Origin: Pilasporangium apinafurcum
Lineage: Eukaryota > Oomycota > Peronosporomycetes > Pythiales > Pythiaceae
Direction of reading: 5' to 3'
NCBI GenBank assembly: GCA_001600495.1
Contig: BCKE01000080.1
Location: 1-61,355 of the forward strand
DNA: 61,355 nucleotides
Below the pieces are notes generated by a model, which saw nothing but the letters and a program-made list of their open reading frames with translations, searched no databases and had not been told where the DNA came from. How positions within the stretch are numbered: position 1 is the first letter of the stretch; every line of letters begins with the position of its first letter. Shown in pieces: positions 1,641 through 59,611 of the stretch. The position numbers and the translations under genes were made by a program.

Positions 1641-1643
1641 TAC

Positions 1644-1649
1644 TTTATT
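1644..1649 (-). terminator. Polyadenylation signal AATAAA for the 1728-3479 gene
   Basis: AATAAA on the minus strand lies about 80 bases past the stop codon of the secreted-protein gene. The mirror copy is at 11276-11281. Confidence 0.45.
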
Positions 1650-1727
1650 AACGATCACAAGATGTAGAAGAACAACACAAGACTCTCATTTATCAAACAA
1701 ACTCATCTAACAGTTCAAGAGAACGAT

Positions 1728-20521: not shown

Positions 20522-22648
20522 TTAAGTGTGATATCCTGGACAGAAATATGAATGCAATTTTGCATTTTCTTCATCCAATGCTTCTTGTGATTTCAACCTT
20601 GCACACAGCGGTGTCCCATCAGCTTCCACGTCGACTTTCTCGAGAAATTCATTTGTTGTCATCCATTCTGGTACAGATGTGATATTCGTTGTATCGATCA
20701 AAAGTTTGGACAGTGATGCTCCAACGGTAGCTACATCAGAAGGCAATGCAGAATATGGATTCTGGCCAATCTGGATACGACGGAGACTATCGATTTCAAA
20801 TAGTTTTCGTGGCAGGCTCAGCAAACGGTTACTCTTTAAGTTGAGATTCGAGAGATCCATGCGAAGGAGAACCTCGGGAACATGATCAAAGGAATTCCCT
20901 TGAAGCATCAGATTGATGTTTTTCGGCCAAAATTCATCTAAATCTGGTGGAAGTTCAGAGAGGCTGCAATAGTAAACTACAATGTCCTGAAGAGCGGGCG
21001 GGAAGTCAGAAGAGACCATACCAGATGGTAACGTACTACCAGTTCCATCACCAAACGCGGCAAAATTTATCCCAACGAGCACGAGGCGACGTATCTTTGG
21101 GTGAAATTTCTTAGATAATGCGGCTTCTTCATTCCATTCAGCCAGCGTCACGTACCGCATGTCGAATGATACCATATTCGTGAAATTACGCACACTTTCG
21201 GGGATATGGAGCTCCATACAGTTTTGAAATCCTAGCACACTGACTGATTTTGCGTTGACTTCCGCCCAAGGAGCTTCCACATCTATTGCTTTTCCAACAA
21301 TCCCACCAAAAGCCTTGCAATCCACTTGGAAATAGGAACAACTTGTTTGTGCGGTAGCCCACGGATATACTTGTACAATGCAACCAGGTAGTGGCTTATG
21401 CAGTCCTGCCTCCAGATGAAGCCCCATTATCAAACATCCCCATAATATCAAGCCAAAATGCACTATTTTCTCCACTCGACGGTTCCATATGGCAATTTTC
21501 TCCTTTGGCATACAACTGGTAGGGCGAAATACAACAAAGTCCGCTGCTGATGCGAGCATTTTTATGTCATCTAAGCAAAACAGTAGTGTGATGGCAAAGA
21601 GCGCACGACTGGTAAAATCGTACCAGTTTTGAATGAAGAGCAGCTTGAATTCATTAACAAAATTCCCGTACCAAATGTTGTCTGCCCAATTAGAAAGTTT
21701 GAATGTCGTCTCAGATGGGAGATAATCTTGGACGTACGCCAACGCCAAAGCCGTTGGAATTCCCACACACGATACGAAATCAAGCACGACGTCCACAAGC
21801 ACACAAAGCAGCAATTCTTGCCGCGGATACTTATGAAGCAACTTCTGCAACATTGGCGTTGACCAGCAGCTAATGACCACAGCAGCAACGCTGAATCGAT
21901 TCAACCACACGCGTGGCACATATTCACTCAACTGATAAGCTTGAATGGACTGAAGTATCGTCTCAATGGCTTCACGAACAAGAAAGAGTATGGAAAAATA
22001 TTTCCCACCCACGCCAAAGATCCCTTTGAGACCGAAAGACTGTTCCCATGCATCATTGGTGTGTCTTTTCAAATCCACCAGCTTCTGAAAGCTCGAATTT
22101 TTTTGATCATTTTCACATTCAAACTTGCCAATATCATCAATTGGGCGCACAATAGAGACAGCTTGTTTCTTGACGGTCTCGATACGATGAAAAATCATAC
22201 GTCGATGCTTCAGCGAACGTATAAGCATATCAATGAGGCAGATGCCATGCATAACAGATATAATGGCGTGGCAGACTGAAATGAGCGGGAAGTATTTCAT
22301 GTCGATTGATAACCCAAATGAGTCCATTGAGATGCGAAGAAAGGTAAATGGGATTTTTTTGTACACGTACGCGACTAGCCCATAGTATATGCCACCCATG
22401 ATGTGAATTCCGACAATCGTGACCCAGAGCACATTGCTTGTAATTGTGGAACAATTGAAGCTCCATCTGTTATCCATCTGCTTGGTCAAGCTTGCGTCAC
22501 GAACTGGCAGGGGTCCAACAGCATTTGTTTTAGTATCCCATGCAATCGTTGGCGCACGTTTCAGTGGAAGAGGCGAGTTGTGATAGAGTGTATTAGAATC
22601 GGCATTTGGGTCGATCTGCTTCGAGTTGAAAGAATGTGTGGTTTCCAT
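20522..22648 (-). CDS. Seven-helix membrane protein with leucine-rich-repeat ectodomain, paralogue
   Basis: The 708-residue protein has the same layout as 16388-18574 and is highly similar along its whole length except in the N-terminal 70 residues and in the loop after the second helix, where both length and sequence differ. Conserved segments include the LLCVLVDVVLDFVSCVGIP helix, the WYGNFVNEFKLLFIQNWYDF loop, the Cys-rich start of the ectodomain, and the leucine-rich repeats before the C-terminal FCPGYHT. The frame is open with an ATG start. It is convergent with the other copy; about 2 kb of mobile-element debris separates them. A receptor-like surface role is inferred only from the layout. 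Confidence 0.8.
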   Translation of the reverse strand: METTHSFNSKQIDPNADSNTLYHNSPLPLKRAPTIAWDTKTNAVGPLPVRDASLTKQMDNRWSFNCSTITSNVLWVTIVGIHIMGGIYYGLVAYVYKKIPFTFLRISMDSFGLSIDMKYFPLISVCHAIISVMHGICLIDMLIRSLKHRRMIFHRIETVKKQAVSIVRPIDDIGKFECENDQKNSSFQKLVDLKRHTNDAWEQSFGLKGIFGVGGKYFSILFLVREAIETILQSIQAYQLSEYVPRVWLNRFSVAAVVISCWSTPMLQKLLHKYPRQELLLCVLVDVVLDFVSCVGIPTALALAYVQDYLPSETTFKLSNWADNIWYGNFVNEFKLLFIQNWYDFTSRALFAITLLFCLDDIKMLASAADFVVFRPTSCMPKEKIAIWNRRVEKIVHFGLILWGCLIMGLHLEAGLHKPLPGCIVQVYPWATAQTSCSYFQVDCKAFGGIVGKAIDVEAPWAEVNAKSVSVLGFQNCMELHIPESVRNFTNMVSFDMRYVTLAEWNEEAALSKKFHPKIRRLVLVGINFAAFGDGTGSTLPSGMVSSDFPPALQDIVVYYCSLSELPPDLDEFWPKNINLMLQGNSFDHVPEVLLRMDLSNLNLKSNRLLSLPRKLFEIDSLRRIQIGQNPYSALPSDVATVGASLSKLLIDTTNITSVPEWMTTNEFLEKVDVEADGTPLCARLKSQEALDEENAKLHSYFCPGYHT

Positions 22649-24084: not shown

Positions 24085-27000
24085 TCATCCACAGTGTAAT
24101 AGGTCACTCCATTCCATCTCCTGCGTATTTTTCACCAAAAGCACCTCGAACTCGTCCCATGCGACCCACGTATTAGCTTGGAAGCCCAGTTTCACAACTT
24201 CTTTTGGCATCAGCACGATCTGTTTCGTGCGTTTCGATTGCAACCAATAAATCTCTTGGTTGGCGAAAAACCGCAGCCGTACCAATGNCCAGAGATCAGT
24301 CAGGAACGTTAAATTCATTAACGAGACAAGAGACACCACTTCAGGTCGTCGCTCCAGTATGCGTTCAAGGTTCCACTGCAAGATCTCACGTTCGCCCTGC
24401 AACATAACGAACGATATCAGATCGCTGGTAGCGCTCTTCTTACGTATATCATCCACTTTTCCTTCCTTTCCNCCTGAGAGGATGACATGAGTAGTTGTAG
24501 GGATCTCAGCCGTCGCTGGTAATTCTGGGATGCTTTTCNTCAGTGAAGTACATCTATCCGTTTCCCACTCCGAACCGTTAAGGTAGGAGCCATTCCGTGC
24601 CATTTGACTGACCTGTTTTTTCACTGGTACCACCACTGTCCGCACTTGAGCCTTCCACGATGCATATTTTGTAGGTGAAACGGAAGGTGTTGAGTTCTCT
24701 ACCTCGTGTGGAAATACTACTGCTTCGTCCCACGCTACACTGAGAGCTGATGCCGGCCAGAGGATACCACTTGAGTATGGCGCCAGAGTTGTCTCGAGGA
24801 AAAGCGTTCTCTTCATGCGTTGGACAGCAACCATATATTTTTCTCGCTCTGGTTGTACTTCGCCACGTAGCCGTTGACGCAACAGCTTGACCACTGCTAT
24901 CGTCGCGTGAAAAGCAATAGTGAGCGAAACCAACCCGACCAGCACACATCCAACACNNNNNNNNNNNNNNNNNNNNNNNNNNNNNNNNNNNNNNNNNNNN
25001 NNNNNNNNNNNNNNNNNNNNNNNNNNNNNNNNNNNNNNNNNNNNNNNNNNNNNNNNTGTCCGCACTTGAGCCTTCCACGATGCATATTTTGTAGGTGAAA
25101 CGGAAGGTGTTGAGTTCTCTACCTCGTGTGGAAATACTACTGCTTCGTCCCACGCTACACTGAGAGCTGATGCCGGCCAGAGGATACCACTTGAGTATGG
25201 CGCCAGAGTTGTCTCGAGGAAAAGCGTTCTCTTCATGCGTTGGACAGCAACCATATATTTTTCTCGCTCTGGTTGTACTTCGCCACGTAGCCGTTGACGC
25301 AACAGCTTGACCACTGCTATCGTCGCGTGAAAAGCAATAGTGAGCGAAACCAACCCGACCAGCACACATCCAACACACTTGACGTCCAGCAATATGCCTT
25401 CCCAGAGTTCATTCCCACCGCCATTGCTTTGATAGCTGAACTGCTTCAGTCCAATCACACCATGCGAACCACCAACCACTTCGTTAACCGAGACGATTGG
25501 AGTGCTACGGAAGCTCACGGACCTGTACTGCGCAAAGACTGTGACGGCCGAAATGAGTGTGATCGAAAATTCACGCACACCCCGAACGCCTGTGGCTGAC
25601 GCTACCCAGTTTGTCCGCCGAGATGCCACGTACGTGAAGAAATGCACGATAAGAGCCATGAACCACACGTTACGCATTCGAACAGTAGCGATCAAGATGA
25701 AATCTCGAAAGCTAATGCTGAGGATCCCGTTTACTGAATTGAGCTTATGCGTCACCATCTCGTACGTTATAGGTGAATCGATGATGTGCGCCGAGACATA
25801 ACAGACCAACGGGAACCAGCTACCATAGATCACCACCTGACACGGAATCCTGAGAAACATCAATGCCGCTGCACGAAGACGTCGCAAGGAGAATGTCTTA
25901 GGTCGAATAGTTTTTCCCTTCTCCGACATCGCGGTCGCCCGGTAGCATCCACAAAAGAGNNCAATGCAGCGTAAATACATGTANCCTTGGCCAANACATC
26001 GCAGCGTTGCAACAACCCAATACCAGTTAAGTACATCAGACGTGAANATCTCGCCTTCANNGCGGTAATCCTCAATAAANANCGTCTCACAGCNAGNGCT
26101 CGTGGTNTCATTACCATTACAATTTCGCACACGCGAAATCGTGAGAATGTCATACNTACGGCGACCGAGGTACGATAATCCGCCGCGATTAAATGTCGAG
26201 TCTTCAGTACTCTCGATAATCGTCAGATCCACCTGGAACTCTGGATACATGGACTGAATCGTTTGTTGTCTTTCGAGGATATGCGTCCATAGATACCCCA
26301 TTTGAACTTGGCACATAGTAGTTCCAGTGCCGCCACATCCATATAGAAAGTCCACCCAACGTTCGTCGCACGAGTATGGGCGGATGGGATTAGATATCGA
26401 GCAAAGCGAAGCGTTGAACGGAAGCAGCACCGAGGAGTAGCCCACTGGATAGTGCAACACCTGGCTTGTCCGCCAAATGGGTTTGTTGAAGAACGACGGA
26501 AGGAGATGATGATGCAGCTGATCGAACCACATATATTGTGATCGCAATGTAATTGCAACAGGAGATATAGATGCAGGGACATTCCCCAATCCCGCCGATT
26601 CCTGCATTTGAGATCGACTTCCAACTGTGTCCACCAGCGAATCTAGCATCTTAAACACAGTTGCACTACTGAGGAAGTCACTCATACAATTGCTCCAATA
26701 CATCACACAATCTGGAAACGTTGAAAGTTGCAGATATTTCACAAACGATCGCAGTCCGATCGACACTGTATCATACTTGTATGCAAATACTTTGTAGCCA
26801 ATGCTGGTCTCCTCTGTCGTTGTCTCGTTAGCACGGATCTGCGCCGTGGAATACCAGTACGGACCGAACGAAAGGAAAATATTGGGCTCTATTTGCGTGT
26901 ATTTCTCGTGGAGATTGGTAACGGCCAACCCGGTACGCGGAATATCGGTGAAGAGCATCAGATAGGAGAAGCAGGCGACAATTGCTCGAATCCAAGTAAC

Positions 27001-27267
27001 TTTAATGGCATTCCCACAGTGTGCNGCATAACGGTGCTGGGAAGTCATATCAAGATTGTNATTNGCTGTTTTACACTGCTGACNGAACACCGGTATTTGT
27101 GAAGCCGAGGGAGATGATAGAGAAGGTGTTATCGAAGGCAATTCAGCGGCGATAACGGCACCTGCACTGTCAGTAGCAACGGTTGCATGATGTGCTGGAT
27201 TGGTACCACCGTCCAATAACTCGAACTTGGTGGCTCCAGTGCTTGCTTCCGAAATGGCTTCGCTCAT
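24085..27267 (-). CDS. Large multi-pass membrane protein (model inflated by a gap duplication)
   Basis: The open frame of 1060 codons runs through a 100-N gap and a 320-base exact duplication (420 bases together, a multiple of three). Removing one copy plus the gap gives about 920 residues. The N-terminal 70 residues are hydrophilic, followed by a membrane segment (about 90-115), a Cys-containing ectodomain of nearly 300 residues, a bundle of hydrophobic segments from about residue 390 to 640, and a long cytoplasmic tail rich in charged residues. Many ambiguous bases at 25959-26160 and 27025-27085 make parts unreadable. Layout and tail resemble 4066-6306. The function is unknown. Confidence 0.65.
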   Translation of the reverse strand: MSEAISEASTGATKFELLDGGTNPAHHATVATDSAGAVIAAELPSITPSLSSPSASQIPVFXQQCKTXNXNLDMTSQHRYXAHCGNAIKVTWIRAIVACFSYLMLFTDIPRTGLAVTNLHEKYTQIEPNIFLSFGPYWYSTAQIRANETTTEETSIGYKVFAYKYDTVSIGLRSFVKYLQLSTFPDCVMYWSNCMSDFLSSATVFKMLDSLVDTVGSRSQMQESAGLGNVPASISPVAITLRSQYMWFDQLHHHLLPSFFNKPIWRTSQVLHYPVGYSSVLLPFNASLCSISNPIRPYSCDERWVDFLYGCGGTGTTMCQVQMGYLWTHILERQQTIQSMYPEFQVDLTIIESTEDSTFNRGGLSYLGRRXYDILTISRVRNCNGNXTTSXXCETXFIEDYRXEGEXFTSDVLNWYWVVATLRCXGQXYMYLRCIXLFCGCYRATAMSEKGKTIRPKTFSLRRLRAAALMFLRIPCQVVIYGSWFPLVCYVSAHIIDSPITYEMVTHKLNSVNGILSISFRDFILIATVRMRNVWFMALIVHFFTYVASRRTNWVASATGVRGVREFSITLISAVTVFAQYRSVSFRSTPIVSVNEVVGGSHGVIGLKQFSYQSNGGGNELWEGILLDVKCVGCVLVGLVSLTIAFHATIAVVKLLRQRLRGEVQPEREKYMVAVQRMKRTLFLETTLAPYSSGILWPASALSVAWDEAVVFPHEVENSTPSVSPTKYASWKAQVRTXXXXXXXXXXXXXXXXXXXXXXXXXXXXXXXXXXVGCVLVGLVSLTIAFHATIAVVKLLRQRLRGEVQPEREKYMVAVQRMKRTLFLETTLAPYSSGILWPASALSVAWDEAVVFPHEVENSTPSVSPTKYASWKAQVRTVVVPVKKQVSQMARNGSYLNGSEWETDRCTSLXKSIPELPATAEIPTTTHVILSXGKEGKVDDIRKKSATSDLISFVMLQGEREILQWNLERILERRPEVVSLVSLMNLTFLTDLWXLVRLRFFANQEIYWLQSKRTKQIVLMPKEVVKLGFQANTWVAWDEFEVLLVKNTQEMEWSDLLHCG
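24637..25376. other. Scaffold gap flanked by a false duplication
   Basis: 24637-24956 and 25057-25376 are the same 320 bases, and they sit on either side of exactly 100 Ns (24957-25056). This is what results when two overlapping contig ends are placed in a scaffold without being merged. Confidence 0.9.
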
Positions 27268-46476: not shown

Positions 46477-47241
46477 TCACAAGGTCTCTCTTCGCCCACA
46501 GGTCGGGCAACATAAAGATTCATTGAGTTTCTCAATGATGCACTCGTCATGAAACTGATGACCGCAGGAAAGACTTGTAAAATAGCTCAACGACCTTGAA
46601 CGACTTGTTAATGTCAGCATTTCACTGTCTTGACAGAGCATACAGGAGTATACTGGTTGCGTATTCAGTTGCTCTTCTTCATCAGAAGTGGTTGCGTAAA
46701 AGGAATCAGTAAAGAAACGCGCAGCCTCTGTCTTCAATGGCTCCACACCTTGACCGATGAAGGATAAAAACTCATTCATGACTACCTCTGCAATGACGGA
46801 ACAGCTTGCATTCGATCGATTCAATAAGAAGCTTTGTAGCGTCGTAATAAAACGAAGCAGCGCCTGCCGTCGTTTGTTCACACTGCATGAGTACTTAGAC
46901 ACGGGGAGCCACTGCTTGGGTGGGAAGTAGCTTTTCACAAACGTATATAACCACGGACATTCGGCTTCACAGAAATGGCCGCGCTGCATCAGCTTCAAAA
47001 GTCGTTGCTGGAAACGACGGTAGGCGTCGAATGAGCGACTCAGGGTCCATGTGGTTGCACTCGATGATGACTGTGCGCTGTCCATAGTGGTTGATTGTAG
47101 CGAGAGAACCAGTGGATAATAAAGACGACGGGAGTTCATTCTATGTGGATCTGAAGCTTGGACATCAATAGTTAGTTGGTGCAAGAGCGCCAATTGAGGG
47201 GAAATCCCAGGCAGAGATAGATTGCGCTTGGAGCTGCCCAT
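46477..47241 (-). CDS. PX-RING protein 1 (PX-like domain, C-terminal RING-H2)
   Basis: The 254-residue protein has a PX-like fold from about residue 35: strand-rich start, WTLSRSFDAYRRFQQRLLKL (the PX R-S-[FY] phosphate-binding Arg), an insertion RGHFCEAECPWLYTFVKSYF, then PPKQW and KRRQALLRFITTLQSFLLN, as in PX domains (which bind PI3P in most eukaryotes). An acidic Ser-rich linker follows, then CMLCQDSEML and SCGHQFHDEC plus CPTC, a complete C3H2C3 RING. It is predicted to be a membrane-recruited E3 ubiquitin ligase. The start is the first ATG (47241). It is first of seven paralogues in the array to 59.6 kb. Confidence 0.75.
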   Translation of the reverse strand: MGSSKRNLSLPGISPQLALLHQLTIDVQASDPHRMNSRRLYYPLVLSLQSTTMDSAQSSSSATTWTLSRSFDAYRRFQQRLLKLMQRGHFCEAECPWLYTFVKSYFPPKQWLPVSKYSCSVNKRRQALLRFITTLQSFLLNRSNASCSVIAEVVMNEFLSFIGQGVEPLKTEAARFFTDSFYATTSDEEEQLNTQPVYSCMLCQDSEMLTLTSRSRSLSYFTSLSCGHQFHDECIIEKLNESLCCPTCGRRETL

Positions 47242-47608
47242 GGTTTCTATTTCTTGTGCTTTCACTTGCTGATGGTAAATTTTCAGTTCTGCCTTGGATC
47301 AACACACATCCTAGCTGAAAGAGTGCCACTCTCTTCTTAAATTTAAAAGCGTGAATATTGGCCACTAAGAGTCCGTAAAGAGCGCACTGACTTTCGATGT
47401 TATCCCGTTCTCTCAATGTAGCCATTTTCTTTTTTTCACCTGAAATTTGTATGGATTTCACATACAAGTGCTAACCATCTGATCAAAATGAGGACAGCAG
47501 AAGAGCCAGATCATAATGCATCCACCGACGTTATCTTTGAATAGCTACATATAATAGAAAACGAATATTTTATGATGAATGCAATAGATAAAAATAAGAT
47601 TTATTTGA

Positions 47609-48463
47609 CTACGAGCTCACGTGTGCCCCACAAGTAGGACAATTCATTGACTCGTTGAGCTTTGTGACAATATACTCGTCTGGGAATTGATGACCACAAT
47701 CGAGCTTCACAAACGAACATCTCAACGGAGAGTTGTGTTCCTCTTTATCTAATGTAGACGGTTCTTGCTCGCATACAGGCACATCACAAGGAATGATAGA
47801 TACGTTCAGCGGCTGCTCTTCATCTGAGGAGGTCAACAATATAGTCCTGTCGCTGCTGGATGAGAGCGAGACCGGACTTTTCTGGATAACCAAACTGCCA
47901 CGAAGCTTGAAGTTCTCCCATCGTGCATCATGATCAACTGGAATGGCAGCATTGATGAATTCGACAAGCTCCAGAGCGACGGTGTTCATGAGAATGGAGC
48001 AACCATAGTTATCACGCTTCAAAAGTGAGTTATGCAGGGTTGTGAGGCAATGATCAAACGCTTCGCATCGCTTATCAATGACATACGCACTGGCGGAATA
48101 CAGATAACATTCCTTTGGGAAATTACTCTTGAGAAAAGAAAACAACCATGGACACTCAGCTGTGCAAAAGTGGCCGCGCTTGACTGCCTGCAGCAACCGT
48201 TTTTGCAAAGCACGGTATTCTTTATAGCTTCGACTGATGTACCAACTTGATTGTGAAGCGCTATGAAGTTGGATATGCAAATCATAACGCACGTCTTTGG
48301 CTTTCTTATAGTTCGTAGAGGCATCGATTTCCAAAGTAAACTGCTTGAGGAATTGGATAGTGGCTGGGATGGACATAGATGACGCGGGACTGATAGTATG
48401 CATAATGGGAGTAGAAGGAGACCGAGAGCCACAGGAACGTCGAATCGATGAGCGGCGCTGCAT
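47609..48463 (-). CDS. PX-RING protein 2 (RING degenerate)
   Basis: The 284-residue paralogue has the PX-like core (WYISRSYKEYRALQKRLL, then RGHFCTAECPWLFSFLKSNF and the basic KRCEAFDHCLTTLHNSLL). The C-terminal finger is altered: the first pair is absent or shifted (PCDVPVCE), and the central ligands read CGHQFPDEY where the others have CGHxFHDEC, so at least one His and one Cys are lost. CPTC remains. The protein may bind membranes but should be a poor ligase. It lies 367 bases from copy 1 in the same direction, and its spacer shows no gene. Confidence 0.7.
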   Translation of the reverse strand: MQRRSSIRRSCGSRSPSTPIMHTISPASSMSIPATIQFLKQFTLEIDASTNYKKAKDVRYDLHIQLHSASQSSWYISRSYKEYRALQKRLLQAVKRGHFCTAECPWLFSFLKSNFPKECYLYSASAYVIDKRCEAFDHCLTTLHNSLLKRDNYGCSILMNTVALELVEFINAAIPVDHDARWENFKLRGSLVIQKSPVSLSSSSDRTILLTSSDEEQPLNVSIIPCDVPVCEQEPSTLDKEEHNSPLRCSFVKLDCGHQFPDEYIVTKLNESMNCPTCGAHVSS

Positions 48464-49282
48464 AACTTTTCAACTTGGTAACGTGTCAGTGAGATGGTAG
48501 GTTATATAATGGGACACGCGCTTCCAATGTAAGTAGAGATGATCATCATTTTCCATCATCTGACCCTCATATTCGAAATCTTACCAGTGATAGTATTTAA
48601 TAGCATTTACAATATGAATACTAAATAGTATTATTTTTTGAACTAGAGAAAATTGAATTTTATTATGTAACATACACTATTTAACAAGGATAATACTAAA
48701 TATAGCCGTGGATGGATTTTTTGGACTGACTCTCCTTCACATAGAGCAGCCATGTCTTCGATTGATTACCATGTGCGACTCGCAAATTTGTGGTGGTAAT
48801 CGATGTTTACCGACTTCCACGACTATCACGCTGTTCAATTGTGGGCATAATCACATCTTATCGAGCTGACTTAGCCGGTGCTCAACCTTTCTTTAGCCTA
48901 AAATATCCTTGTGCTCCTGCGGAAGCTGTTTACTGTTGCTTGAAACTCCGCGACAGCACAACCAGACATTAACAAAAGATCTACAACCCAAGTTTTCTTC
49001 AAAATGTGCCGCTGGTGGTGGATTTTGAAGGATAATTAATCTTGAGGCTAGCAGAAGTCCTGTATAAATGGTTTCGGAAGGAGCTGAAGAGCGATCTAAA
49101 CGGCTGAAATCATAGCTCTAATTTGCACTGTTAAACAATTTCCTCAAATCATCACATACACAGCAACAAAACAGAAAGAAAAATCATGTTATTGCTCATA
49201 AATACGAGTGGAAACGACATACCACCATCTCTCCTGAAGATCTCTTCTATCAGAAGTTACTATACAGCATATCTCCATTTAT
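48464..49282. other. Spacer between PX copies 2 and 3
   Basis: Small open frames only. The stretch 48760-48970 shares some local words with 50550-50700 (GATGTTTACC-type), too weak to call a repeat. Confidence 0.35.
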
Positions 49283-50008
49283 CTACTCCATTTCGGAGTG
49301 GCCACAGGTTGGGCAGCTCATACTCTCATTCAACTTGAGTAAAATGCATTCGTCGTGGAAGCGATGGCCACAACGAAGCTTGGTCATATAGTGTCGATGA
49401 TTTCCATAATCGTCCGACGCCAACCCACAGATCATGCAGCCAACGTCTTCGCTCGCCACAAACGAGCCGTTGGACGACGTGTCTTCCTCATCCGACGTCG
49501 ACAATAGCGAATCCATCGAGTCGCGCTTGATTGGTGACTGCGATGGGTCACACACAAACGCCAACACTTCGTCCACCACACCACGCATCAACACTGTGCA
49601 CGTGTGGTTGTTGCGGTTCAATAAAAACTTTTGGATCGTCGTTATGTATCGTTCGAGTTCCTCTCGTCGCCGTTGGACCACACAGGTATTCGCAGACCGC
49701 AGGAAGCACGACTTGGGAAAATAGCTCGTCACAAATGTGAACAACCACGGACACTCTGCCTGGCAGAAATGTCCTTGATGTAGGTGTTTCAGTAATTTTT
49801 GCTGAAATTGCCGGTACTCATCAAACGATCGGCTGAAGGACCATTGTGCATCGGAAGTTTTGTGTTTGACTATTAATATATATCGAACATCGCGCTTAAG
49901 GTTGACCGTGGCTGCGACCTCCATCGTGACTTGATCGAGCCATGCAAGGCTGTCAGGGAGAAGGAGACTGTGGCGTGAGCGAGTGGAAGAGAAGGAGGAT
50001 TTGGTCAT
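49283..50008 (-). CDS. PX-RING protein 3
   Basis: The 241-residue protein has the PX-like core with WSFSRSFDEYRQFQQKLLKH, the insertion QGHFCQAECPWLFTFVTSYF and the RRREELERYITTIQKFLLN helix. The RING is intact: CMICGLA, then LRCGHRFHDEC and CPTC, all eight ligands in C3H2C3 order. Linker Ser/Asp-rich. It is the shortest member and, with copies 1 and 4, one of the best candidates for an active E3 ligase. It is the last minus-strand member; the following four run on the plus strand. Confidence 0.75.
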   Translation of the reverse strand: MTKSSFSSTRSRHSLLLPDSLAWLDQVTMEVAATVNLKRDVRYILIVKHKTSDAQWSFSRSFDEYRQFQQKLLKHLHQGHFCQAECPWLFTFVTSYFPKSCFLRSANTCVVQRRREELERYITTIQKFLLNRNNHTCTVLMRGVVDEVLAFVCDPSQSPIKRDSMDSLLSTSDEEDTSSNGSFVASEDVGCMICGLASDDYGNHRHYMTKLRCGHRFHDECILLKLNESMSCPTCGHSEME

Positions 50009-51117
50009 GGGACTGTTCTTATCAATGGTTATCGCAACGATGACAGTGTCTTTAGACTGAAGATTGAAAAATGAGCAGTTGCTGTGGAGCTCCTTGACAG
50101 CAGCGGAAGTATATCGCGTAAGCTAATCATACATCGCGTAAACTGATCCGTAATCAGTATAGCACGACATTAAATTTAAAATTATTTTTAAAGGGTATAG
50201 AAAAAAACAATTTAAAAGTATTTGAGATTATTTTGTATCTTCATCAATATGAAAAGGATATTCAAAAATGAGGTGATGCATTAGTTCATAAATATTTCGG
50301 AACAATAATGAAATTTACCATCATTCTGTTGGCAGCGGTAACAATCAAGTCTTAAAGTGGAATCAATCCAGCAAGAAAAATGAATCTACTCTCGCCCCAC
50401 GCAAGGGAAGATAAGCAGAAGGAAAGAAGATTGTACTGTATACGTGTGGACAGGGGCACATATCGACATGGTATGTTACTCAGGCTCACTGTTATAAACT
50501 ACGTGCCCGCGGTAATTTATTTTAATCTTCGATACATACGGTCAAGGATTATGCACAGTGGGTCCGCAATCACCAATGTTTACCAACTTCGTTACTTAAG
50601 CAACCAATGGTTCGGCACTTCTTCGAGTTTTTCATGTGCCTCGAACTGCCTTTTTGTAACCGCCGGCTCCTCTCTTCTACCAATCTACAGTTATCTAGGC
50701 TAGTTCCATTGTTGATCAAGTGTTCACGAATGCAGAATGCAAACTTGTTGTGAGCAGGAAGAGTATGCTAATCTCAGTTTTGGACTGATCGTGATACGTT
50801 CCTACAACCTTCACTCTTTTGCAAAATGAGTGGAGTAGTGTCAAACATGATGACACAAAACAAAAAAACGTAATCCACTAAGTAAGAGTGGTTGAGATGG
50901 TCTTCGAAGCGAAGGTGCGAGTGATGGTCCCACTGTTTAAACGCTGGCGGTTTCCCATTTGTTCTCACTACCGTCTACTTGATTACCCCCACCACCACCA
51001 GTCACTGGTGGAGAATAAAAGGTTAAGGGGTAAATTTTGGGAAGGGGTACAAAAATAAAAGGACCCTTGCGCTCCATAGGAATTCTCTACATGTACGCAA
51101 TCAGTGCTGCCTGTCAA
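50009..51117. other. Central spacer of the PX array
   Basis: The axis between the minus-strand and plus-strand arms of the array. Open frames 50380-50703 (plus) and 50774-50968 (minus) have no clear domain. Confidence 0.35.
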
Positions 51118-51811
51118 CTATTGGTTGGTGACTCCAGAAGGGTGAAGAAGAACACCCGACATGAATGATGGGTCAATGTGAGCAATAAGATTCTGCTTCG
51201 ATAATACACGTTGCATGTAGAAATCTACGAGTATGGCACGCCCATCCATAACTACTCTCCAACCACTTGGAATTCTATGCTCACCATCCTCCACTTCATT
51301 TCTAAAAAAAGCAAAAAATGACGTTGAGTCGATTGTCGCCGCAACTCCACACACACACACACGATCGTCCCACCAACCGAAAAGCCCAAAGTGCACTTCA
51401 ATCGTAAACGTCGCTGGCAATGATTCTCCCTCGTCAACAAGCCACAATGCTGTTTAAATCATTTAAGGCCGCATCCGTACCGCATCCACATCCCTATTAT
51501 ATACTTTCATATATTTCACAAGAAAAGTCCTTACAGTAATTATGTACGCAATTTGCGGACTTGTGTAAAATTTTGCACTATACGTTGGATAAAGGGTGCG
51601 CGCAAACACTCTCTCCAATGTACTGGGTGACGGCGGTAGGACGATGTGTCGCACCTGTGTTTATGGGACCCTGACATGGACCAATCAATTGCATCACAAT
51701 ATCAATTTTTATCCAATCACCGAAGAGAAAAATGCAAGGTTGGCTCGTCACGGTTAGGCCAGTTTTGTTGAGGTGGTTTACTACATCCACTAGGTTAGGT
51801 TGACGCTTCAT
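51118..51811 (-). CDS. Possible multi-exon hypothetical gene
   Basis: Minus-strand frames from an ATG at 51811 (78 codons) and near 51447-51118 could be exons of one gene: candidate splice sites lie near 51540 (ACT|GTAAGG) and 51440 (AACAG|CA), and a (GT)n-rich intron seems to interrupt the last frame near 51300-51360. I recognise no domain in the pieces, and the joints are not all in phase. The 5' end is only 26 bases from the start of PX copy 4. It could be an unrelated small gene or random open frame. Confidence 0.25.
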
Positions 51812-51837
51812 TTTCTAAAAATCCGTCAAGAGCTCAG

Positions 51838-52698
51838 ATGAGTTCCAATAGCAGTCAGACAGTCATGGCCACTTCCACTCGTTCTAGTTACAGTTCCCGC
51901 TCTCGGAAGCGGTCGTTTTCGACCGCTTTGCCCGCCTCTGTGGCGTGGCTCGAGCATGTCGCGATGGAGATGACCGCTACAGTTCATAAAGCCCCATGCA
52001 ACAAAAAAACCGTCGAATACACTTTGCACCTACGCCACAAAGACACAAACAAATCGTGGACAGTGTCGCACACTTTTGATGAATTCAAGAAATTTCAACA
52101 GGAATTGCTGCAGTTGCTGCAACGTGGTCACGTGTGCCATGCCGAGTGTCCGTGGCTACATTCGTTTGTGAAAAGCTACTTTCCCAAAAATCACTTGTTC
52201 ACGTCCAACAGCAGCCCACGTGTAGTCGAGAAGCGTCGGCAAACATTGCTACGATTGATGATGGCTTTGCAACAGTCGCTTGTGAACCGTGGCAACCACA
52301 GCTGTCCGATTGTTGTCGATTATCTGGCCGAAGCATTTTCGGACTTTGTCGCTGGTAATGAAGAGTATATTAACAACTACAGCCTCGAAGTCTCATTAGA
52401 GAAGCACTCGCGCGTGTCATCGTGCTCATCGGTCTCGTATACTTCGGGTGAAGAAGACGTGGGAAAATTTTTTTTTGAAGATTATCATGACACTACCTGT
52501 GGATTGTGTGATGGGAACTTGGATTGCGACGATTCACTTCCCACAGATACCTCTACCAGTTCCAGCAGTACGTCTATGGCATGCTGTTCTACCACGACAC
52601 TCAACTGTGGCCACCATTTCCATGATGAGTGTCTATTACCGTCCCTTGATGCGTGCATGACGTGCCCAGTGTGCCACCACGAAGCTCAAGAAGATTGA
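51838..52698 (+). CDS. PX-RING protein 4
   Basis: The 286-residue protein starts with a Ser/Arg-rich stretch, then the PX-like core: WTVSHTFDEFKKFQQELLQL, RGHVCHAECPWLHSFVKSYF, VVEKRRQTLLRLMMALQQSL. The RING is present: TCGLCDGNLDC, a long Ser/Thr-rich spacer of about 35 residues, then LNCGHHFHDEC and CPVC. The spacer between ligand pairs one and two is much longer than in copies 1 and 3, an unusual RING. In the first core the conserved PX Arg is His-Thr (SHTFDEF) instead of SRSF, as in copies 6 and 7, so its phosphoinositide site may differ. Confidence 0.75.
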   Translation: MSSNSSQTVMATSTRSSYSSRSRKRSFSTALPASVAWLEHVAMEMTATVHKAPCNKKTVEYTLHLRHKDTNKSWTVSHTFDEFKKFQQELLQLLQRGHVCHAECPWLHSFVKSYFPKNHLFTSNSSPRVVEKRRQTLLRLMMALQQSLVNRGNHSCPIVVDYLAEAFSDFVAGNEEYINNYSLEVSLEKHSRVSSCSSVSYTSGEEDVGKFFFEDYHDTTCGLCDGNLDCDDSLPTDTSTSSSSTSMACCSTTTLNCGHHFHDECLLPSLDACMTCPVCHHEAQED

Positions 52699-53639
52699 AG
52701 TTCTTGAGAAATTATTATTTTTTTGTTGTATTTAAGTGAACATTATCTTAATGAGTTAATTATTATGGTGAATATAGACGCAATTTTGTGCTTGCTAAAT
52801 TCATTCATTACTTGTTCCTTCATTCAACAGTTTGCTTTGGAGAACATGGCCATCATTTTTCTCATCACACATTAGGACGCGTTGGATGCGGTGAGTGACA
52901 TGTGTCTTCGCAATGTCCCGACATGTCTTGAAAAGCGTTTTCATTTGCGAACGAACGCGTTGTGTAGGGTGTAAAAGTTGGTCGGTCGAGGGACAAGTCG
53001 CATGCCCTCTCGCATTTTGGTGGAAGATTGATGTCAACCAATATCATAGAAGAGACAATATCCCTTCAATCCCGTTTGCAGTCTATGATATTTTAGTATT
53101 ACAAGATTAATGAGTACGACTTGTATAAATTGATTTTGACGCGACACGGCACATTAGAAGGACCCGACTGCTGCGTGCTCACATCCTACGAAAGAAGCAC
53201 GGAGAACGCAGTCGTCGTTCCATTCAGCCTACTTTTTAAGGAAGTAGGTGATTGCGATACACAATTCAACGTTTTGTAAAAACGGAATCCTATTCTACAT
53301 TGTTCATCGAATGTATCATAGAATAAGATCGAATGCGGAATTGTTCTGTTTTCAATGATGCCGTTTTTCTAGAAACCACTTCCAGTGTTATTGTGACCGC
53401 ATGCCCTTCGCTGTGAAAAGAGAAACGAACCCTTCAACATGAAACTATGGATTACTTTTTAACTTTGTTTATGGCGCTGGGAAAACGAGGATAATAAGCG
53501 TAACGAGTTTTTCTCTTACAAGAGTTTAGTGAAATTGAGAAAACAGCGGCTTTTTTCTTCGTATTCACTTGTGTTCCTCTTCTTCATTCCTATACAAAAT
53601 TCATCTCTCTTATATTATTTTCGCAAGCTGTCCGTCCGT
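52699..53639. other. Spacer before a Fanzor-like fragment
   Basis: Minus-strand frame 52801-53037 (78 codons) looks like a C-terminus of some basic protein but matches nothing I know. No other feature. Confidence 0.35.
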
Positions 53640-54110
53640 GCGGAAAACGTATGAGATTCCATTTTGTCTGTCTGGCCAAACCTGTCACACTGACTAGAAA
53701 ACCTGACAAACGAATTACCTCGAAATCTTATTTTCAGTATAACCAACTGCAAGTGTGTCTTTGCAACNAGTATGGGGANTTTTTTNCTGGTATGNCATTC
53801 GACAATTCGCCACNATGGNGTCAAAGCGCTCAAGAAGNAACTGGCAAAGCGCNCTANCGTTCGTTCCGTNGACGAGTTTCGTACAAGCAAGCAATGTTTC
53901 CACTGTCACGCTGAACTTTCGAAGGTAGTCTTCCCGAAAATGGTCAACGGCGTTCCCGATGGCACAATTGAATCTCGATCCGTTTTGCACTGTGAATCCA
54001 GTGAATACAAGACGTTTTGGGATCACGACGTGAACGCTTCGCTGAATATTATGCGCGTGACGACAGAACTTTTCAACAATCGAGCAAGACCAGAGTACTT
54101 GCAACGATAA
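53640..54110 (+). mobile_element. Fanzor-like nuclease gene fragment
   Basis: The frame ending at 54110 encodes DEFRTSKQCFHCHAELSKV (first zinc-ribbon pair), a spacer with GVPDGTIESRSVLHCE, then WDHDVNASLNIM, equal to the third RuvC Asp region, and a tail R-A-R-P-E-Y-L. Order and spacing match 19190-20261. The second zinc pair has one Cys changed. Ten ambiguous bases at 53768-53870 obscure the start, and no first RuvC motif is seen. A hairpin like the one after the 19190-20261 element lies 65 bases downstream. It is inserted in the PX array. Confidence 0.65.
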
Positions 54111-54172
54111 TCAAGTGAGTTGTAGAAGCGCAAAAAAAGCGTGAGCTCGAGGTCTTCGGACTTGAACCTGTT

Positions 54173-54196
54173 CACACGGTACAGCCCGTATTCTAG
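54173..54196 (+). other. Conserved 3' hairpin of a Fanzor-like element
   Basis: CACACGGTACAGCCCGTATT: ACGG pairs with CCGT. The stem and the following ATTCT are the same as at 20319-20340, while the loop differs. Confidence 0.5.
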
Positions 54197-54916
54197 GTGT
54201 AGCCACTTGGTAGGCGCAACTCGCGAAGCGAGTTGGAGCAACCTAGTCCCAAATATTAAGCAAGAAACTGGTCGTTTTTCTTCGTACCAGCTTGCGGCAG
54301 CCCTTTGTACCCATTTTGAGCGCAATAGCTACTCACGCAAGCCCGTCGTACTACATACATTCCTTCTCATATTATGACATGTTGCAGTACAACTAGCACA
54401 CGAGATTTTTTGCTTTTCTCTTCCCGAAATACTACCGATTGAGTAAGGAGATTCAAAAGCGATTCTTGCGTGATTACGGCGCTCTGATTCGGCACAAACG
54501 TCAGAACGATGCAATTCTTCAATGTCACCAAAACCCGCACCTAGATTAAGATACAACATTTAAATTGTATTACTATCGATTGCCGCACAGTCGTAAAAAC
54601 CGCATCATGCAGACTTAGTCGATTTTTTTGAATAAGGTGTCGTGGCGAGAATAGATTTGCTAGCAAGAATGGAGGAAGCATGGATGAGCCAGTCTGCGCA
54701 AATAAACATTAAGTCCTTCAACTTGTATCATCGACGCAGTGTGCACACGTTTCTTCACCAAGAAAGAGACTCAACATCGTAAAGAATCAATGCATATGGT
54801 CCCCTGATAGTTGCAGCTGTTCATGGGTACTTGCAAAACCATGAAAAAAACTATCGTCATTTTCCATTCGTTGTTTACCGCGATCATCTCAAGAATCTCT
54901 CTATCAAGTGATTTTA
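54197..54916. other. Spacer between Fanzor fragment and PX copy 5
   Basis: No gene is supported. Short open frames on both strands only. Confidence 0.4.
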
Positions 54917-55573
54917 ATGACACCGTCAGTCCCTCCAGTCTATCGGAAAAGGAGATTATCATCGAATGCTTTACCGACAAAGGTGGCATGGCTTGAACAC
55001 CTAACAATGGAACTAACGACTAAAGTCACGAAGCTCTCCTTCGTCAAACGCTCGGTTGAGTACACATTGCATCTGTATGATGCAACCAACGATGTATCCT
55101 GGACGTTAAGCTACGCATTCCGCGATTTTCAAGTTCTACAACAGCGGCTATTGACAGCATTGCAGCGTGGTCACATCTGTGGTGCCGAATGTCTGTGGCT
55201 GTACTCGTTAGTGAAAAATTACTTCCCCACAAAGACCAGCTGGTTCCGCTCTAACTCTAGTCAACTTACAGTGGACAGACGACGACAGACACTGCTACGG
55301 TGTTTGTTCCTTCTTCAGTCTTCACTACTGAACCAAGGCAACCACGGCTGTTCAGTTGTGGTAAATCAGCTGGCAGAAGAATTTGCCCGATTTCTCACGG
55401 GTATAGACCAGCCTTTCTCCTCTGCCATACCAGACTCAGAGAAGCAATGTGTACAGTCATCGATTTCGAATACATCGATTTGTGACGACGAGCCCCACGA
55501 CGAGGATGATTTCCACGTGTTGGAAAGCTTTGGTGGAGAAGATATCTGTAATCCTACCAGGGTCGGTTTGTGA
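54917..55573 (+). CDS. PX-like protein 5 (RING lost)
   Basis: The 218-residue paralogue has the PX-like core (WTLSYAFRDFQVLQQRLLTAL, split here by a changed R-S motif, then RGHICGAECLWLYSLVKNYF, RRRQTLLRCLFLLQSSLL) and a long acidic linker. It stops after DICNPTRVGL. No Cys/His finger follows: the next frame has no CGH-type motif. It may act as a membrane-binding partner or be a decayed copy. The ORF from 54908 begins with GTG, so I use the ATG at 54917. Confidence 0.65.
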   Translation: MTPSVPPVYRKRRLSSNALPTKVAWLEHLTMELTTKVTKLSFVKRSVEYTLHLYDATNDVSWTLSYAFRDFQVLQQRLLTALQRGHICGAECLWLYSLVKNYFPTKTSWFRSNSSQLTVDRRRQTLLRCLFLLQSSLLNQGNHGCSVVVNQLAEEFARFLTGIDQPFSSAIPDSEKQCVQSSISNTSICDDEPHDEDDFHVLESFGGEDICNPTRVGL

Positions 55574-56892
55574 CATGAAATTTGCTGCTCATACTCTGGT
55601 CAGCATAGTGAGCAGCACGATCCCCATTGAAATTAATTTACTAGTAGCCCAAATATCTCCTCCATAAACAATGCAACTGCGCTGCAATTTTTGAATGTGT
55701 GGATAGCGGTAGGATGAAAATATTTTTGTAGGGCCCTATGGAACACCGCACGGGAGAGTAAAGTTCGCGGAACAAGGTGGAGGGTGGCTTGAGATACGAA
55801 GCTTCTCATTGATTGCAGAGAAATGGAGGGCGGGGGGGGGGGGGTCGGAGCAAGTTTCTCTTAACTACTACCTCTATTATCTAATATTTTTCTTTTCACG
55901 ACCACCTCCTACACATAAGCAAATGTGTCTTTCATTGAAAATTTCCTTTAAAAATAAATACTTGATTAAAGCTTATAATACCACCATAAAATAGCTGGTT
56001 GTAACGGCCATTGATTTGCTTTGCGAGAAGAAGTTTTTTATTTCCGCGACGGTTGGAGTGATAATGTAGCGCAAAACGGGCTGTATAGTTATCTAGTTCT
56101 TTCCTTGAAAAGAGAAAGTTCAACGGCCATCAGCTCGATGTAGAGCTTTATGTATTTGTACCCACTTGTCACAACAGCTGGCTGGGGTCCTACTACGATT
56201 TTTCGCCCAGGACACATCCAAACATCACACCAAACCGAATTTTTTTCATGATTTTGAAGCCACTACACTGCATGCTCCTCCTCCCTCCCACCCCATCCAA
56301 CTGTACAATTTTTCGCTATTGTATTGATAAACAAATACCGAACAAGAGAAATTGATATCAGAAGAGTTTGTGATGAGCATCTTCTTTGATGATGAAAGAA
56401 ATTGACAAGTGGCATAACACAAAAATTACCGACGTAAGTATTTACCACAAATGTCGGATGGTTGCAGTCGAAAAGCAAGATGAGGGAACTTCAAAAAAAA
56501 GAAGAAAAAAACTCGATCCTACTTTTTTCCATGTGGTGTAACGGTTGTGTTAAACAGGTGTGTCCAACATAATTACTAAAACCCGCATTCGAATAAATCA
56601 GCTGGTTTAAAGCAAAGCATTTTATCTAAAAACATATTTACTTAAAACCGCATATTGCGGCTTTTTCGAAACAGATCGTGGCTTCAAATCTGTAAGGGCC
56701 CACTCTCTCTACCAGAATAAGTCCACGCGTCGGCACCCATTATCTATTCCTGTCAACTTGAGTCACAATGGCCAGATTGGTGATCAGTGTATTCGCAGTA
56801 TAAGCAGCGTGTCTCGCTTTGAGATTCGCATCCGAATGACGCGACCTAATCGTCGTCTCACAATCGAATTTGCAATAGTGAAAGCGGCCGAC
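55574..56892. other. Spacer with a G-run and no supported gene
   Basis: A run of 13 G (55832-55844) is the most notable feature; it could fold as a G-quadruplex or be a sequencing slip. AT-rich otherwise. The 71-codon minus frame at 56263-56478 shows nothing recognisable. Confidence 0.4.
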
Positions 56893-57786
56893 ATGATTGA
56901 CCATCCGTCTCCGACGTCGTCTTCCAATAGTGTCATTATTACGCCCTTGCCGGCTACAGTTGCATTTCTACAACACCTGAAGATGGAGATGACCTCCACC
57001 ATTGATAAAACTGCTGGCAACCAACGGTCGGTGCAATATATGTTGCGCCTGCATCATCAACGGAAGGAACAGATCTCGTGGACGACCAGTCACACATTTG
57101 ATGAATATCGAGAGTTCCAACAGCGATTATTAAAAATTCTGCAACGTGGCCATATCTGCCGCGCAGAGTGTCCGTGGTTGTATTCGTTTGTGAAGAATTA
57201 TTTTCCAAAAGCGTTCCTGTTCACGTCTAATACGAACCCACGTGTGGTTGACAAGCGACGACAAACATTACTGCGATGTATGATGGTACTGCAAGATTCG
57301 CTTTTAAATCGTGGCAACCACAGCTGCACGATCTTTGTGAACGATTTCGCACAGGCATTCCGTGATTTTGTGGCGAGAGATGCGTTGTATGCAAATGAGG
57401 ACATACAATCCGATTCAGAATCTTCAACGAAACCATCCGCAAAGCTGCACGATAGGACGTGGTCGTTTGTATCTAGTTCGTCTTCAGATGAAGAAGACAG
57501 CGAAGAAGATGATGAAGAAGAAGTCGAAGAGTATTCTACGTATGACGCCTGCACGTTGCGCAATGCCAAGCTCGATTGTAGAGATGCAGAACAGGAAGGG
57601 GAAGCGTCTGCTACTTTCACTGACACTTCTTCGTCCTTTTCCTCCTATTCCAGCTCCACCACACCGCTCAGCTGTGGTCACACGTTCCATGATGAATGTG
57701 TTGCGCGTGTCTCTACAAAATGCCCCACTTGTGACTGCCCGCAGCGCGAAGAAGAAAAAGAAGGACCGATAGCATTGTCATGCTGA
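56893..57786 (+). CDS. PX-RING protein 6 (RING partly degenerate)
   Basis: The 297-residue protein has WTTSHTFDEYREFQQRLLKI, RGHICRAECPWLYSFVKNYF and VVDKRRQTLLRCMMVLQDSL in the PX-like core, and an Asp/Glu/Ser-rich linker with a long acidic run. The finger has CGHTFHDEC and CPTC, but the first pair is only loosely matched (DACTLRNAKLDC), so zinc site 1 may be changed. The start is uncertain: the longer frame to 56758 lacks an ATG, and ATGs lie at 56836 and 56893. I prefer 56893, which keeps the N-terminus as short as in the paralogues. Confidence 0.7.
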   Translation: MIDHPSPTSSSNSVIITPLPATVAFLQHLKMEMTSTIDKTAGNQRSVQYMLRLHHQRKEQISWTTSHTFDEYREFQQRLLKILQRGHICRAECPWLYSFVKNYFPKAFLFTSNTNPRVVDKRRQTLLRCMMVLQDSLLNRGNHSCTIFVNDFAQAFRDFVARDALYANEDIQSDSESSTKPSAKLHDRTWSFVSSSSSDEEDSEEDDEEEVEEYSTYDACTLRNAKLDCRDAEQEGEASATFTDTSSSFSSYSSSTTPLSCGHTFHDECVARVSTKCPTCDCPQREEEKEGPIALSC

Positions 57787-58726
57787 CACCACCTTCTCCT
57801 CATCTATTTATTTGATCCCTTCAAAGGTTCTTCTATTTAGGTCATATATAGTATTACATCTACCTAATCGAACATCTTATCTGAGATCCTTCCACGTACT
57901 ATTGTGACATATTTCCGCACGAAACGCTTCTTCACCGTCCATTCGATCGTGGAAAACGAACAGCTGAAAGAAAAAGCAATTCAGGCATCCATTCAATAAT
58001 CCACTGGATTTAGAGCTGGCCGTACTCATTTTGAAGAATGACGTCATGCATTTTGTTCTGAACAATCCAGCAAAGCAATATGAGAATCCTACTCTTATCG
58101 GGTGGCGTCATGCACTTCTTTCTGACTGTCAATAGCGACGATTAGTTTGACAGAAAATCAATGTTGTCGCCCGAGGATAACCAATTCGAACTTTCTCTAC
58201 ATTTTAGAGCAGCAACTACTCGTTATCACAACAAGCTTGTTATTGCCTTATTTAGCTCACCCAATAACCACCTAGAAAGAGGGTCGATGATGTGATTCAC
58301 TTCATTGATTTCTGTCTCAAGCGTTGTCATATAAACGGATGTAAGATCATATCATTTAGCTCTACGGTTGTACTGCTAGAAAATTACCACCAGCAGAGGC
58401 TAAGGGCATCATCAATGCTCGATGAACGTAATCGAATGCGGACCATCCAGGTACACGGGCAATTAAGCCCGCAAAGCGATGGTTACAATATGCTACGTCT
58501 ACTAATATAATAAAACCCTCATGACAAATAAAGTCCATTTTTTGCGTACTTAAGCGACAGATTAAAAATATTGGGGCGCAAACACCAAGACAATCTTGAT
58601 GCCACAGGTGACGCTCCATTTTCTCATCATTTCTGAACAGCAGAGTTTGTCACATGCGTGTTAGCTTTAGAACATGGACCACTCATTTGTGATTCTGTCA
58701 TTAACTACCACAATCTCTGCGCACCA
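57787..58726. other. Spacer with a short repeated motif
   Basis: Around 58040 and 58106 two stretches match GTCATGCAYTT followed by YTG; related copies lie at 60846 and 60877. No gene is supported here. Confidence 0.35.
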
Positions 58727-59611
58727 ATGAGCTCTGTACGAAGCAGAACAATGACTTCTACTTCCCAACCCGTTAAATGTCTGCGCAAGCGATCGTGTTC
58801 CGACTCCCATATACCAACAATATCCTGGGCGGAGCAAATCGCCACCGCATTGCCAGGTCCCTCCGATCTACCAAAAACAGTGGCATGGCTGGACCATTTG
58901 ACCATCGAGATGGAGTCGACTATAATATGCAAGAAAACGTCATACATCATGCAGTTGCATCATCGATGGAGTGGAATGAAGTGGACAATGAGTCATTCAT
59001 TCGAAGCCTTTCATGCATTACAGCTAAAATTGCTGTCATTACTGCAGCGTGGTCACTGCTGTGGTGCCGAGTGCAAGTGGCTGTTTTCGTTTGTAAAAAG
59101 CTACTTCCCCAAGCCGTCGCTATTGCCATCGAAGTCGAAATGTGCAATAGAGAAGCGACGTCAGAAGCTGCTGCGCTGTCTACTAGTATTACAGGCGTCG
59201 TTATTGAATCGAGGAAACCACGGTTGCTCGATTGTCGTGGACGAATTGGCAGAAGCGTTTGCACAGTTTGTGATGGGCGACTTAATGAATAACGTGAGTC
59301 AGGTACTAAAATCGTTCATTCCAGTCAAGCAGCAACCGCTAGCTGGGCCTACTTTGTCATGGTCATCATTAGCGCATACATCTGATGAAGACGGTGTCCA
59401 CGAATTTCAATTGGATGATCTTGATGATATCTGCGATTCCAGCGTGAACTGTAGTTGTGACTCGCCTACGGATGTCTCCAGTTTCTCCACAACCTCTACG
59501 ACCTCCACCGCCTCCAGCAGCAGCAGTAGTAGCAACAGTCATCGCCGGCTGCACTTTGAATTATTTTTTAGTTTCAATAAGCATGGTCACCACAACGTAC
59601 ATAAGAAATAA
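58727..59611 (+). CDS. PX-like protein 7 (RING lost)
   Basis: The 294-residue protein has a longer N-terminus, then WTMSHSFEAFHALQLKLLSL, RGHCCGAECKWLFSFVKSYF and AIEKRRQKLLRCLLVLQASL of the PX-like core, a long Ser/Thr-rich linker and a C-terminus without any CGH finger, ending VHKK. Like copy 5, it lacks the RING. The start at 58727 is the first ATG with a good N-terminal match; the longer frame begins with GTG. It is the last array member before the mobile-element-rich right edge. Confidence 0.7.
   Translation: MSSVRSRTMTSTSQPVKCLRKRSCSDSHIPTISWAEQIATALPGPSDLPKTVAWLDHLTIEMESTIICKKTSYIMQLHHRWSGMKWTMSHSFEAFHALQLKLLSLLQRGHCCGAECKWLFSFVKSYFPKPSLLPSKSKCAIEKRRQKLLRCLLVLQASLLNRGNHGCSIVVDELAEAFAQFVMGDLMNNVSQVLKSFIPVKQQPLAGPTLSWSSLAHTSDEDGVHEFQLDDLDDICDSSVNCSCDSPTDVSSFSTTSTTSTASSSSSSSNSHRRLHFELFFSFNKHGHHNVHKK

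Follow-up and report, generated by a model that had tools for sequence, protein, structure and literature searches.

A predicted zinc-clamped PX subclass in the oomycete Pilasporangium apinafurcum and a tandem PX-RING clade within it

We have found that a 61,355-nucleotide stretch of Pilasporangium apinafurcum DNA (bases 1-61355 of contig C80, referred to here as the window, in a genome of 36.5 Mb and 136 contigs) carries, at 46477..59611, a seven-gene array whose products share a PX-like core with a Cys/His insertion and, in some copies, end in a RING finger of the RING-H2 type. The explanation that we favor, with some confidence and largely on comparative sequence grounds, is that the array is a lineage-specific expansion of an oomycete PX-RING family and represents a derived clade in which a putatively zinc-clamped PX domain is conserved and probably forms the part that docks onto proteins. 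The pairing of PX with RING is already known; what is added here is a probable zinc clamp with a fourth ligand, the spread of this clamp over a subclass of PX domains, and the joint loss of lipid-binding and RING signatures in one clade. As originally predicted, the array has seven genes. They are intronless-looking open reading frames (ORFs) of 218-316 residues, three on the minus strand (46477-50008) and four on the plus strand (51838-59611), with the following features:

46477..47241, minus strand: copy 1, 254 residues; PX core with insertion (46951-46980) and a complete RING-H2 finger (46498-46644, residues 200-248).
47609..48463, minus strand: copy 2, 284 residues; PX core with insertion (48146-48175) and a degraded RING that has lost ligands (CGHQFPDEY...CPTC).
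49283..50008, minus strand: copy 3, 241 residues; PX and RING-H2 (49304-49438) both above the Pfam cut-off, with insertion (49745-49774).
49745..49774, minus strand: insertion of copy 3, G79-H80-x-C82-x3-C86-x-W88, with three of the four predicted zinc ligands.
49598..49600, minus strand: C137 codon of copy 3 (position derived from the start of the ORF); modelled in the alpha2-alpha3 loop and predicted as the fourth zinc ligand.
51838..52698, plus strand: copy 4, 286 residues; PX above the Pfam cut-off, insertion (52126-52155), and RING (52498-52674, from residue 221) with all eight ligands and a first loop of 32 residues.
54917..55573, plus strand: copy 5, 218 residues; PX core with insertion (55169-55198), no RING.
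56836..57786, plus strand: copy 6, 316 residues; PX core with insertion (57148-57177) and a RING lacking the first C-x2-C pair.
58727..59611, plus strand: copy 7, 294 residues; PX core with insertion (59051-59080), no RING.

The shared core aligns across all seven copies (mean column identity 44%), and each of them contains the sequence G-H-x-C-x-A-E-C-x-W. A degenerate DNA motif for this sequence occurs 10 times in the 36.5-Mb genome, once in every window gene, and its reversed control not at all; a chance origin was rejected on this ground. The motif had been described with the spacing C-x2-A-E-C and with a fixed tail; in fact a single residue lies between the Cys and the Ala, and the tail is variable (SFLKSNFP in copy 2, SLVKNYFP in copy 5). 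The expectation that the His and both Cys of the insertion are kept in every copy, including those without a RING, holds in 7/7 window copies and extends to all members of a larger clade. A search of the genome with copy 3 returned eight more close relatives, three of them beyond the window on contig C80 (71.8, 83.2 and 84.7 kb) and the other five singletons, one each on contigs C9, C24, C26, C41 and C64. The tandem expansion is thus real but larger than the seven copies claimed, with 10 copies on the contig and at least 15 in the genome. In a tree of 35 PX cores the fifteen relatives group together as a single clade (support 97/93); the tree left out three of 38 aligned rows, of which two were RING proteins that lack PX and one aligned poorly. 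A fourth invariant Cys, overlooked in the original prediction, is C147 in copy 1 and C137 in copy 3. In copy 3 numbering, H80, C82, C86 and C137 are invariant in 15/15 clade members, as are M1, P18, G79, F97, P98, R114 and F151, and no other positions. When the 15 clade proteins were compared with the window by tblastn, no further leftover copies were detected between the genes, beyond the seven loci. A search of two sequence collections with the seven-copy alignment gave 34 pattern matches in viral_contigs and 23 in genome_contigs, none of which was confirmed, as expected for a eukaryotic family.

The assignment of the core to the PX fold is supported by Pfam scores, profile comparison, the topology of an AlphaFold2 model and Foldseek matches. 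The Pfam PX model (PF00787) scores above its gathering score of 21.6 in two of the seven copies (24.0 in copy 3 and 25.1 in copy 4) and below it in the other five (14.6-17.2 bits, E 0.007-0.049); copy 3 alone passes the cut-offs for both PX and zf-RING_2 (PF13639), the other six falling below one or both. When the profile of the seven cores was compared with that of twelve Cys-rich PX domains from this genome, the match covered 118 columns, including the insertion, at a probability of 97.8%, compared with at most 1.0% for three column-shuffled decoys; the canonical PX domains of this genome are gapped at the insertion in the profile alignment. The AlphaFold2 model of copy 3, built from a 7-row alignment (mean predicted local distance difference test score (pLDDT) 68.2, predicted template modelling (TM) score 0.54), has three beta strands, three helices and an extended PPK loop, as is characteristic of PX domains: beta1 spans residues 27-35, beta2 41-49, beta3 55-60 and alpha1 62-81, after which come an extra helix at 87-95, alpha2 at 108-130, alpha3 at 138-153 and a RING-like tail. 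With this model, Foldseek places the PX domains of SNX16, SNX25 and Nischarin at ranks 1-3 and the RING of RNF4 at rank 4, with the PX domain of SGK3 also among the best matches; the PX matches have probabilities of 0.99-1.00 and E values of 0.007-0.034, with 0 of 499 matches at E 0.001 or better and PX TM-scores by target of 0.19-0.52. Solved structures found by sequence are mostly RING proteins, RNF4 being the best (E 7.6e-6), and the PX chains of KIF16B and CISK appear only at E 0.05-0.09.

The cysteines of the insertion are accompanied, across the genome, by cysteines elsewhere in the PX fold. We counted Cys in 53 of the 61 PX matches of the genome, taking as the first stretch the segment from alpha1 to the PPK-equivalent proline and as the second loop that between alpha2 and alpha3. 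Of the 15 matches with at least two Cys in the insertion, 14 carry Cys in the alpha2-alpha3 loop too, compared with 7 of the 38 others (Fisher p 6e-7). The difference persists when six rows with a stop inside the match are removed (14/15 versus 5/32), when the window clade is removed as well (11/12 versus 5/32, p 6e-6) and when rows are collapsed at 35% identity (12/13 versus 5/26, p 2e-5). The first stretch averages 26 residues in Cys-rich PX domains and 16 in the others; a mere effect of longer loops was rejected as the explanation for the co-occurrence, as the second loops of the 15 Cys-rich rows contain 26 Cys among about 330 residues, and those of the 32 other kept rows 6 among about 450. 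Several PX domains of the genome carry C-x2-C, the usual zinc-knuckle spacing, in both places (CPGC and CPTC, for example). The Cys insertion recurs among the PX domains of this genome; it is not peculiar to PX-RING proteins and marks a subclass of PX domains, which is best read, from these sequence patterns, as zinc-clamped. In the window clade H80, C82, C86 and C137 likely form the metal site. The Cys and His of the longer alpha1-PPK stretch, together with the Cys of the alpha2-alpha3 loop, would hold one structural zinc ion, and this site would be located distal to the lipid pocket, at one end of the domain. In the PX fold, alpha1 and alpha2 both end on the side distal to that pocket, so the four ligands could meet in space. 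The earlier suggestion that the insertion might bind zinc is therefore supported indirectly, by conservation and by Cys co-occurrence, and is extended by C137 as a fourth ligand.

A second property of the clade concerns lipid binding. PX domains that bind phosphatidylinositol 3-phosphate (PtdIns3P) have an Arg-Tyr pair at beta3/alpha1, a Lys in the PPK loop and an Arg in alpha2, and human PX domains that bind this lipid carry all four key residues while non-binders lack at least one, according to a published study (PMC6449406). The clade does not carry the full set: the PtdIns3P arginine of the first pair is replaced by Ser, Thr or Ala in 15/15 members, including 7/7 window copies, while the aromatic position is F/Y in 14/15, Lys directly follows FP in 12/15 and the alpha2 Arg is present in 15/15. 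Outside the clade the first Arg is kept in 11 of 12 Cys-rich PX domains and in 24 of 32 others, so its loss is complete in the window clade, though not unique to it. The clade thus probably lacks canonical PtdIns3P binding, judging from these residues.

The RING-H2 tail described for the array is present with all eight ligands in copies 1, 3 and 4, incomplete in copies 2 and 6, and absent from copies 5 and 7; only copy 3 exceeds the zf-RING_2 cut-off. Genome-wide the RING is complete in 8/15 clade members if the first loop may be as long as 100 residues, the C24 and C26 copies qualifying under this wide pattern and failing a narrower one, so that the RING is lost or decayed in about half of a clade that has also lost the PtdIns3P Arg. 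At the position of the usual RING Trp the eight complete RINGs have Lys (6), Ser (1) or Arg (1), and never Trp. An Arg follows the last RING Cys in one of the eight; in copy 4 and the C9 copy, both of which have an extra Cys, the residue there, taken directly from the sequence, is His and Gly, respectively. The RING Trp and the Arg after the last Cys matter for activation of the ubiquitin-conjugating enzyme and are usually linked to activity. A complete RING is also present in nine further PX or PX-like proteins of the genome, with Trp in 9/9 and Arg after the last Cys in 9/9. Five of them are in the Pfam PX list, and all five, which lie outside the clade, keep the PtdIns3P arginine; L034 and L035 match copy 3 across PX and RING, whereas L089, which matches the copy 3 PX weakly (E 0.03), and L091, which matches its RING only, are PX-like at best. 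We note that three PX-RING proteins (C9:258716, C9:287392 and C9:539811) form a separate group (support 91/87) with a long first stretch without Cys.

These residues bear on the proposal that the array encodes lipid-targeted ubiquitin ligases, in which the PX domain would attach to PtdIns3P or some other phosphoinositide at endosomes, where the RING would ubiquitinate cargo, much as for yeast Pib1p and mammalian Rififylin. The precedent of those two proteins (PMC4466420), the presence of a PX fold and a RING in one chain, the retained alpha2 Arg and Lys after FP, and the nine other proteins with complete RINGs, five with the PtdIns3P Arg, would all be in keeping with such a function. For the window copies, however, the proposal is weakened because the PtdIns3P Arg is replaced in all seven (and throughout the clade), the RING is complete in three of the seven and incomplete or absent in four, and the RINGs that are intact lack residues typical of active RINGs, with Trp absent from 8/8 and the final Arg from 7/8 in the clade. 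We therefore regard a lipid-targeted ligase as a rather unlikely description of the array.

Several observations weigh against a zinc-clamped PX domain that has given up canonical lipid binding. The seven cores match twelve canonical PX domains of the same genome with a profile probability of 56.7% only. One Cys-rich PX domain (C4:357002) has no Cys in the second loop, 5 of the 32 kept Cys-poor PX domains do have Cys there, and the PX-RING proteins C9:258716 and C9:287392 have a long insertion without Cys. All rows of the co-occurrence count come from one genome and are related, so its p-values overstate independence. AlphaFold2 models contain no metal, and the blocks that hold the ligands rank with the least confidently modelled parts of the PX core (pLDDT 62 for residues 81-90 and 69 for residues 131-140). 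The lack of PtdIns3P binding is judged by human rules, and other basic residues could bind other lipids. It is also conceivable that the Cys and His bind no metal and serve instead as a redox switch or a partner-binding patch, a reading that suits an insertion among the least sure parts of the model. That the His is invariant together with the Cys, and that several other PX domains have C-x2-C, with its zinc-knuckle-like spacing, in both places, makes this improbable.

A zinc-clamped PX domain would be a stable docking module, for which a protein partner or a non-specific acidic membrane would be likelier than PtdIns3P. Ubiquitin ligase activity at the docking site would still be open to copies whose RING is complete, and RING-less copies could serve as competitors or adaptors; the chances that copies lacking a RING function as docking-only proteins appear to us to be even. 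Somewhat more tentatively, we suggest that oomycetes possess a PX subclass whose helical end is stapled by one zinc, and that one tandem clade of it has shed canonical lipid binding and, stepwise, the RING, giving rise to protein-docking pseudo-ligases. The PX cores of one RING-less pair (copy 7 and the 72-kb copy) have a nonsynonymous change (dN) of 0.23 and a synonymous change (dS) of 2.64, which is near saturation; these values are consistent with a core that stays constrained when the RING is gone, but do not make a strong test. With core dS infinite in 5 of 7 pairs, the copies could not be dated by synonymous change. A decaying family, mostly of pseudogenes kept by chance, would account for the lost or incomplete RING in 4/7 window copies and 7/15 genome-wide, but is very improbable given that all seven frames are open across the whole PX core, that the invariant residues persist in RING-less copies, and that core dN is 0.23-0.49 in seven pairs with synonymous change near or at saturation.

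The architecture, which the original prediction could not name, is already in print: one study describes RING joined to PX and calls the combination oomycete-specific (PMC7409359), and on this point the original prediction falls on its own terms. The protein in question, Phytophthora parasitica PPTG_08353, has a PX domain and a RING-type zinc finger, and its gene is induced more than 33-fold in zoospores supplied with K+; like it, window copies pair PX and RING in one protein. Unlike the window array, PPTG_08353 is described there, in the part available, with neither a tandem array nor a PX zinc site, the comparison being by description only (PMC7409359). The nearest working analogy for PX-RING is provided by Pib1p and Rififylin, in which FYVE is joined to RING, so that a phosphoinositide-type module and a RING again share one chain (PMC4466420). 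Unlike these proteins, the window clade has PX rather than FYVE and lacks the PtdIns3P arginine. FYVE and PX are not known to be homologous. We know of no Cys/His site in the PX domains of human SNX5, SNX6 and SNX32, and the helical extension of these domains sits elsewhere than the window-clade insertion. Like the clade, they lack key PtdIns3P residues and have an added helical element, and in the published study they did not bind lipid and bind proteins (PMC6449406). No zinc-binding or Cys-insertion PX domain was found in the literature, in a search limited to top-ranked records and without most subscription papers or bioRxiv preprints. In the P. apinafurcum genome, FYVE gives at least 145 matches at E 0.001, and PX-RING proteins are numerous; P. 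sojae is reported to have 272 FYVE proteins (PMC8233823). Contig C52 (173-241 kb) has four PX matches within 68 kb, a further loose cluster that lacks the Cys insertion.

Elsewhere in the window, two inverted arms of 2518 bp that are 99.96% identical (609-3126 on the minus strand and 9799-12316 on the plus strand) hold the 3' parts of ORFs 1728-3479 and 9635-11197, whose N-terminal parts differ; the arms might reflect a very recent duplication, gene conversion or an assembly effect. Paralogous proteins of 728 and 708 residues are encoded on opposite strands at 16388-18574 (plus) and 20522-22648 (minus), and the 728-residue protein has no Pfam match at E 0.01. A run of 100 N at 24957-25056, inside ORF 24085-27267 and flanked by repeated sequence, probably marks a gap in the assembly across a duplication. 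Between copies 4 and 5, a fragment at 53772-54110 (plus strand) with scattered single N bases matches a Cas12f1-like TNB domain (27.4 bits, cut-off 26.3), which we take to be a TnpB/Fanzor-type C-terminus. Scans of the window for transfer RNAs and Rfam families gave 0 and 0 matches.

PX domains are known, as far as we are aware, as lipid readers without metal. A zinc-clamped PX subclass, if true, would represent a new way to build a PX domain, and the paired Cys sets provide a signature that could readily be tested and built into domain models, by which five of the seven window copies now score below the cut-off. The clade also offers a natural gradation between the complete PX-RING form and a lone PX domain, useful for asking what role the PX domain plays by itself in oomycetes, in which one PX-RING gene shows a strong response to K+ (PMC7409359).

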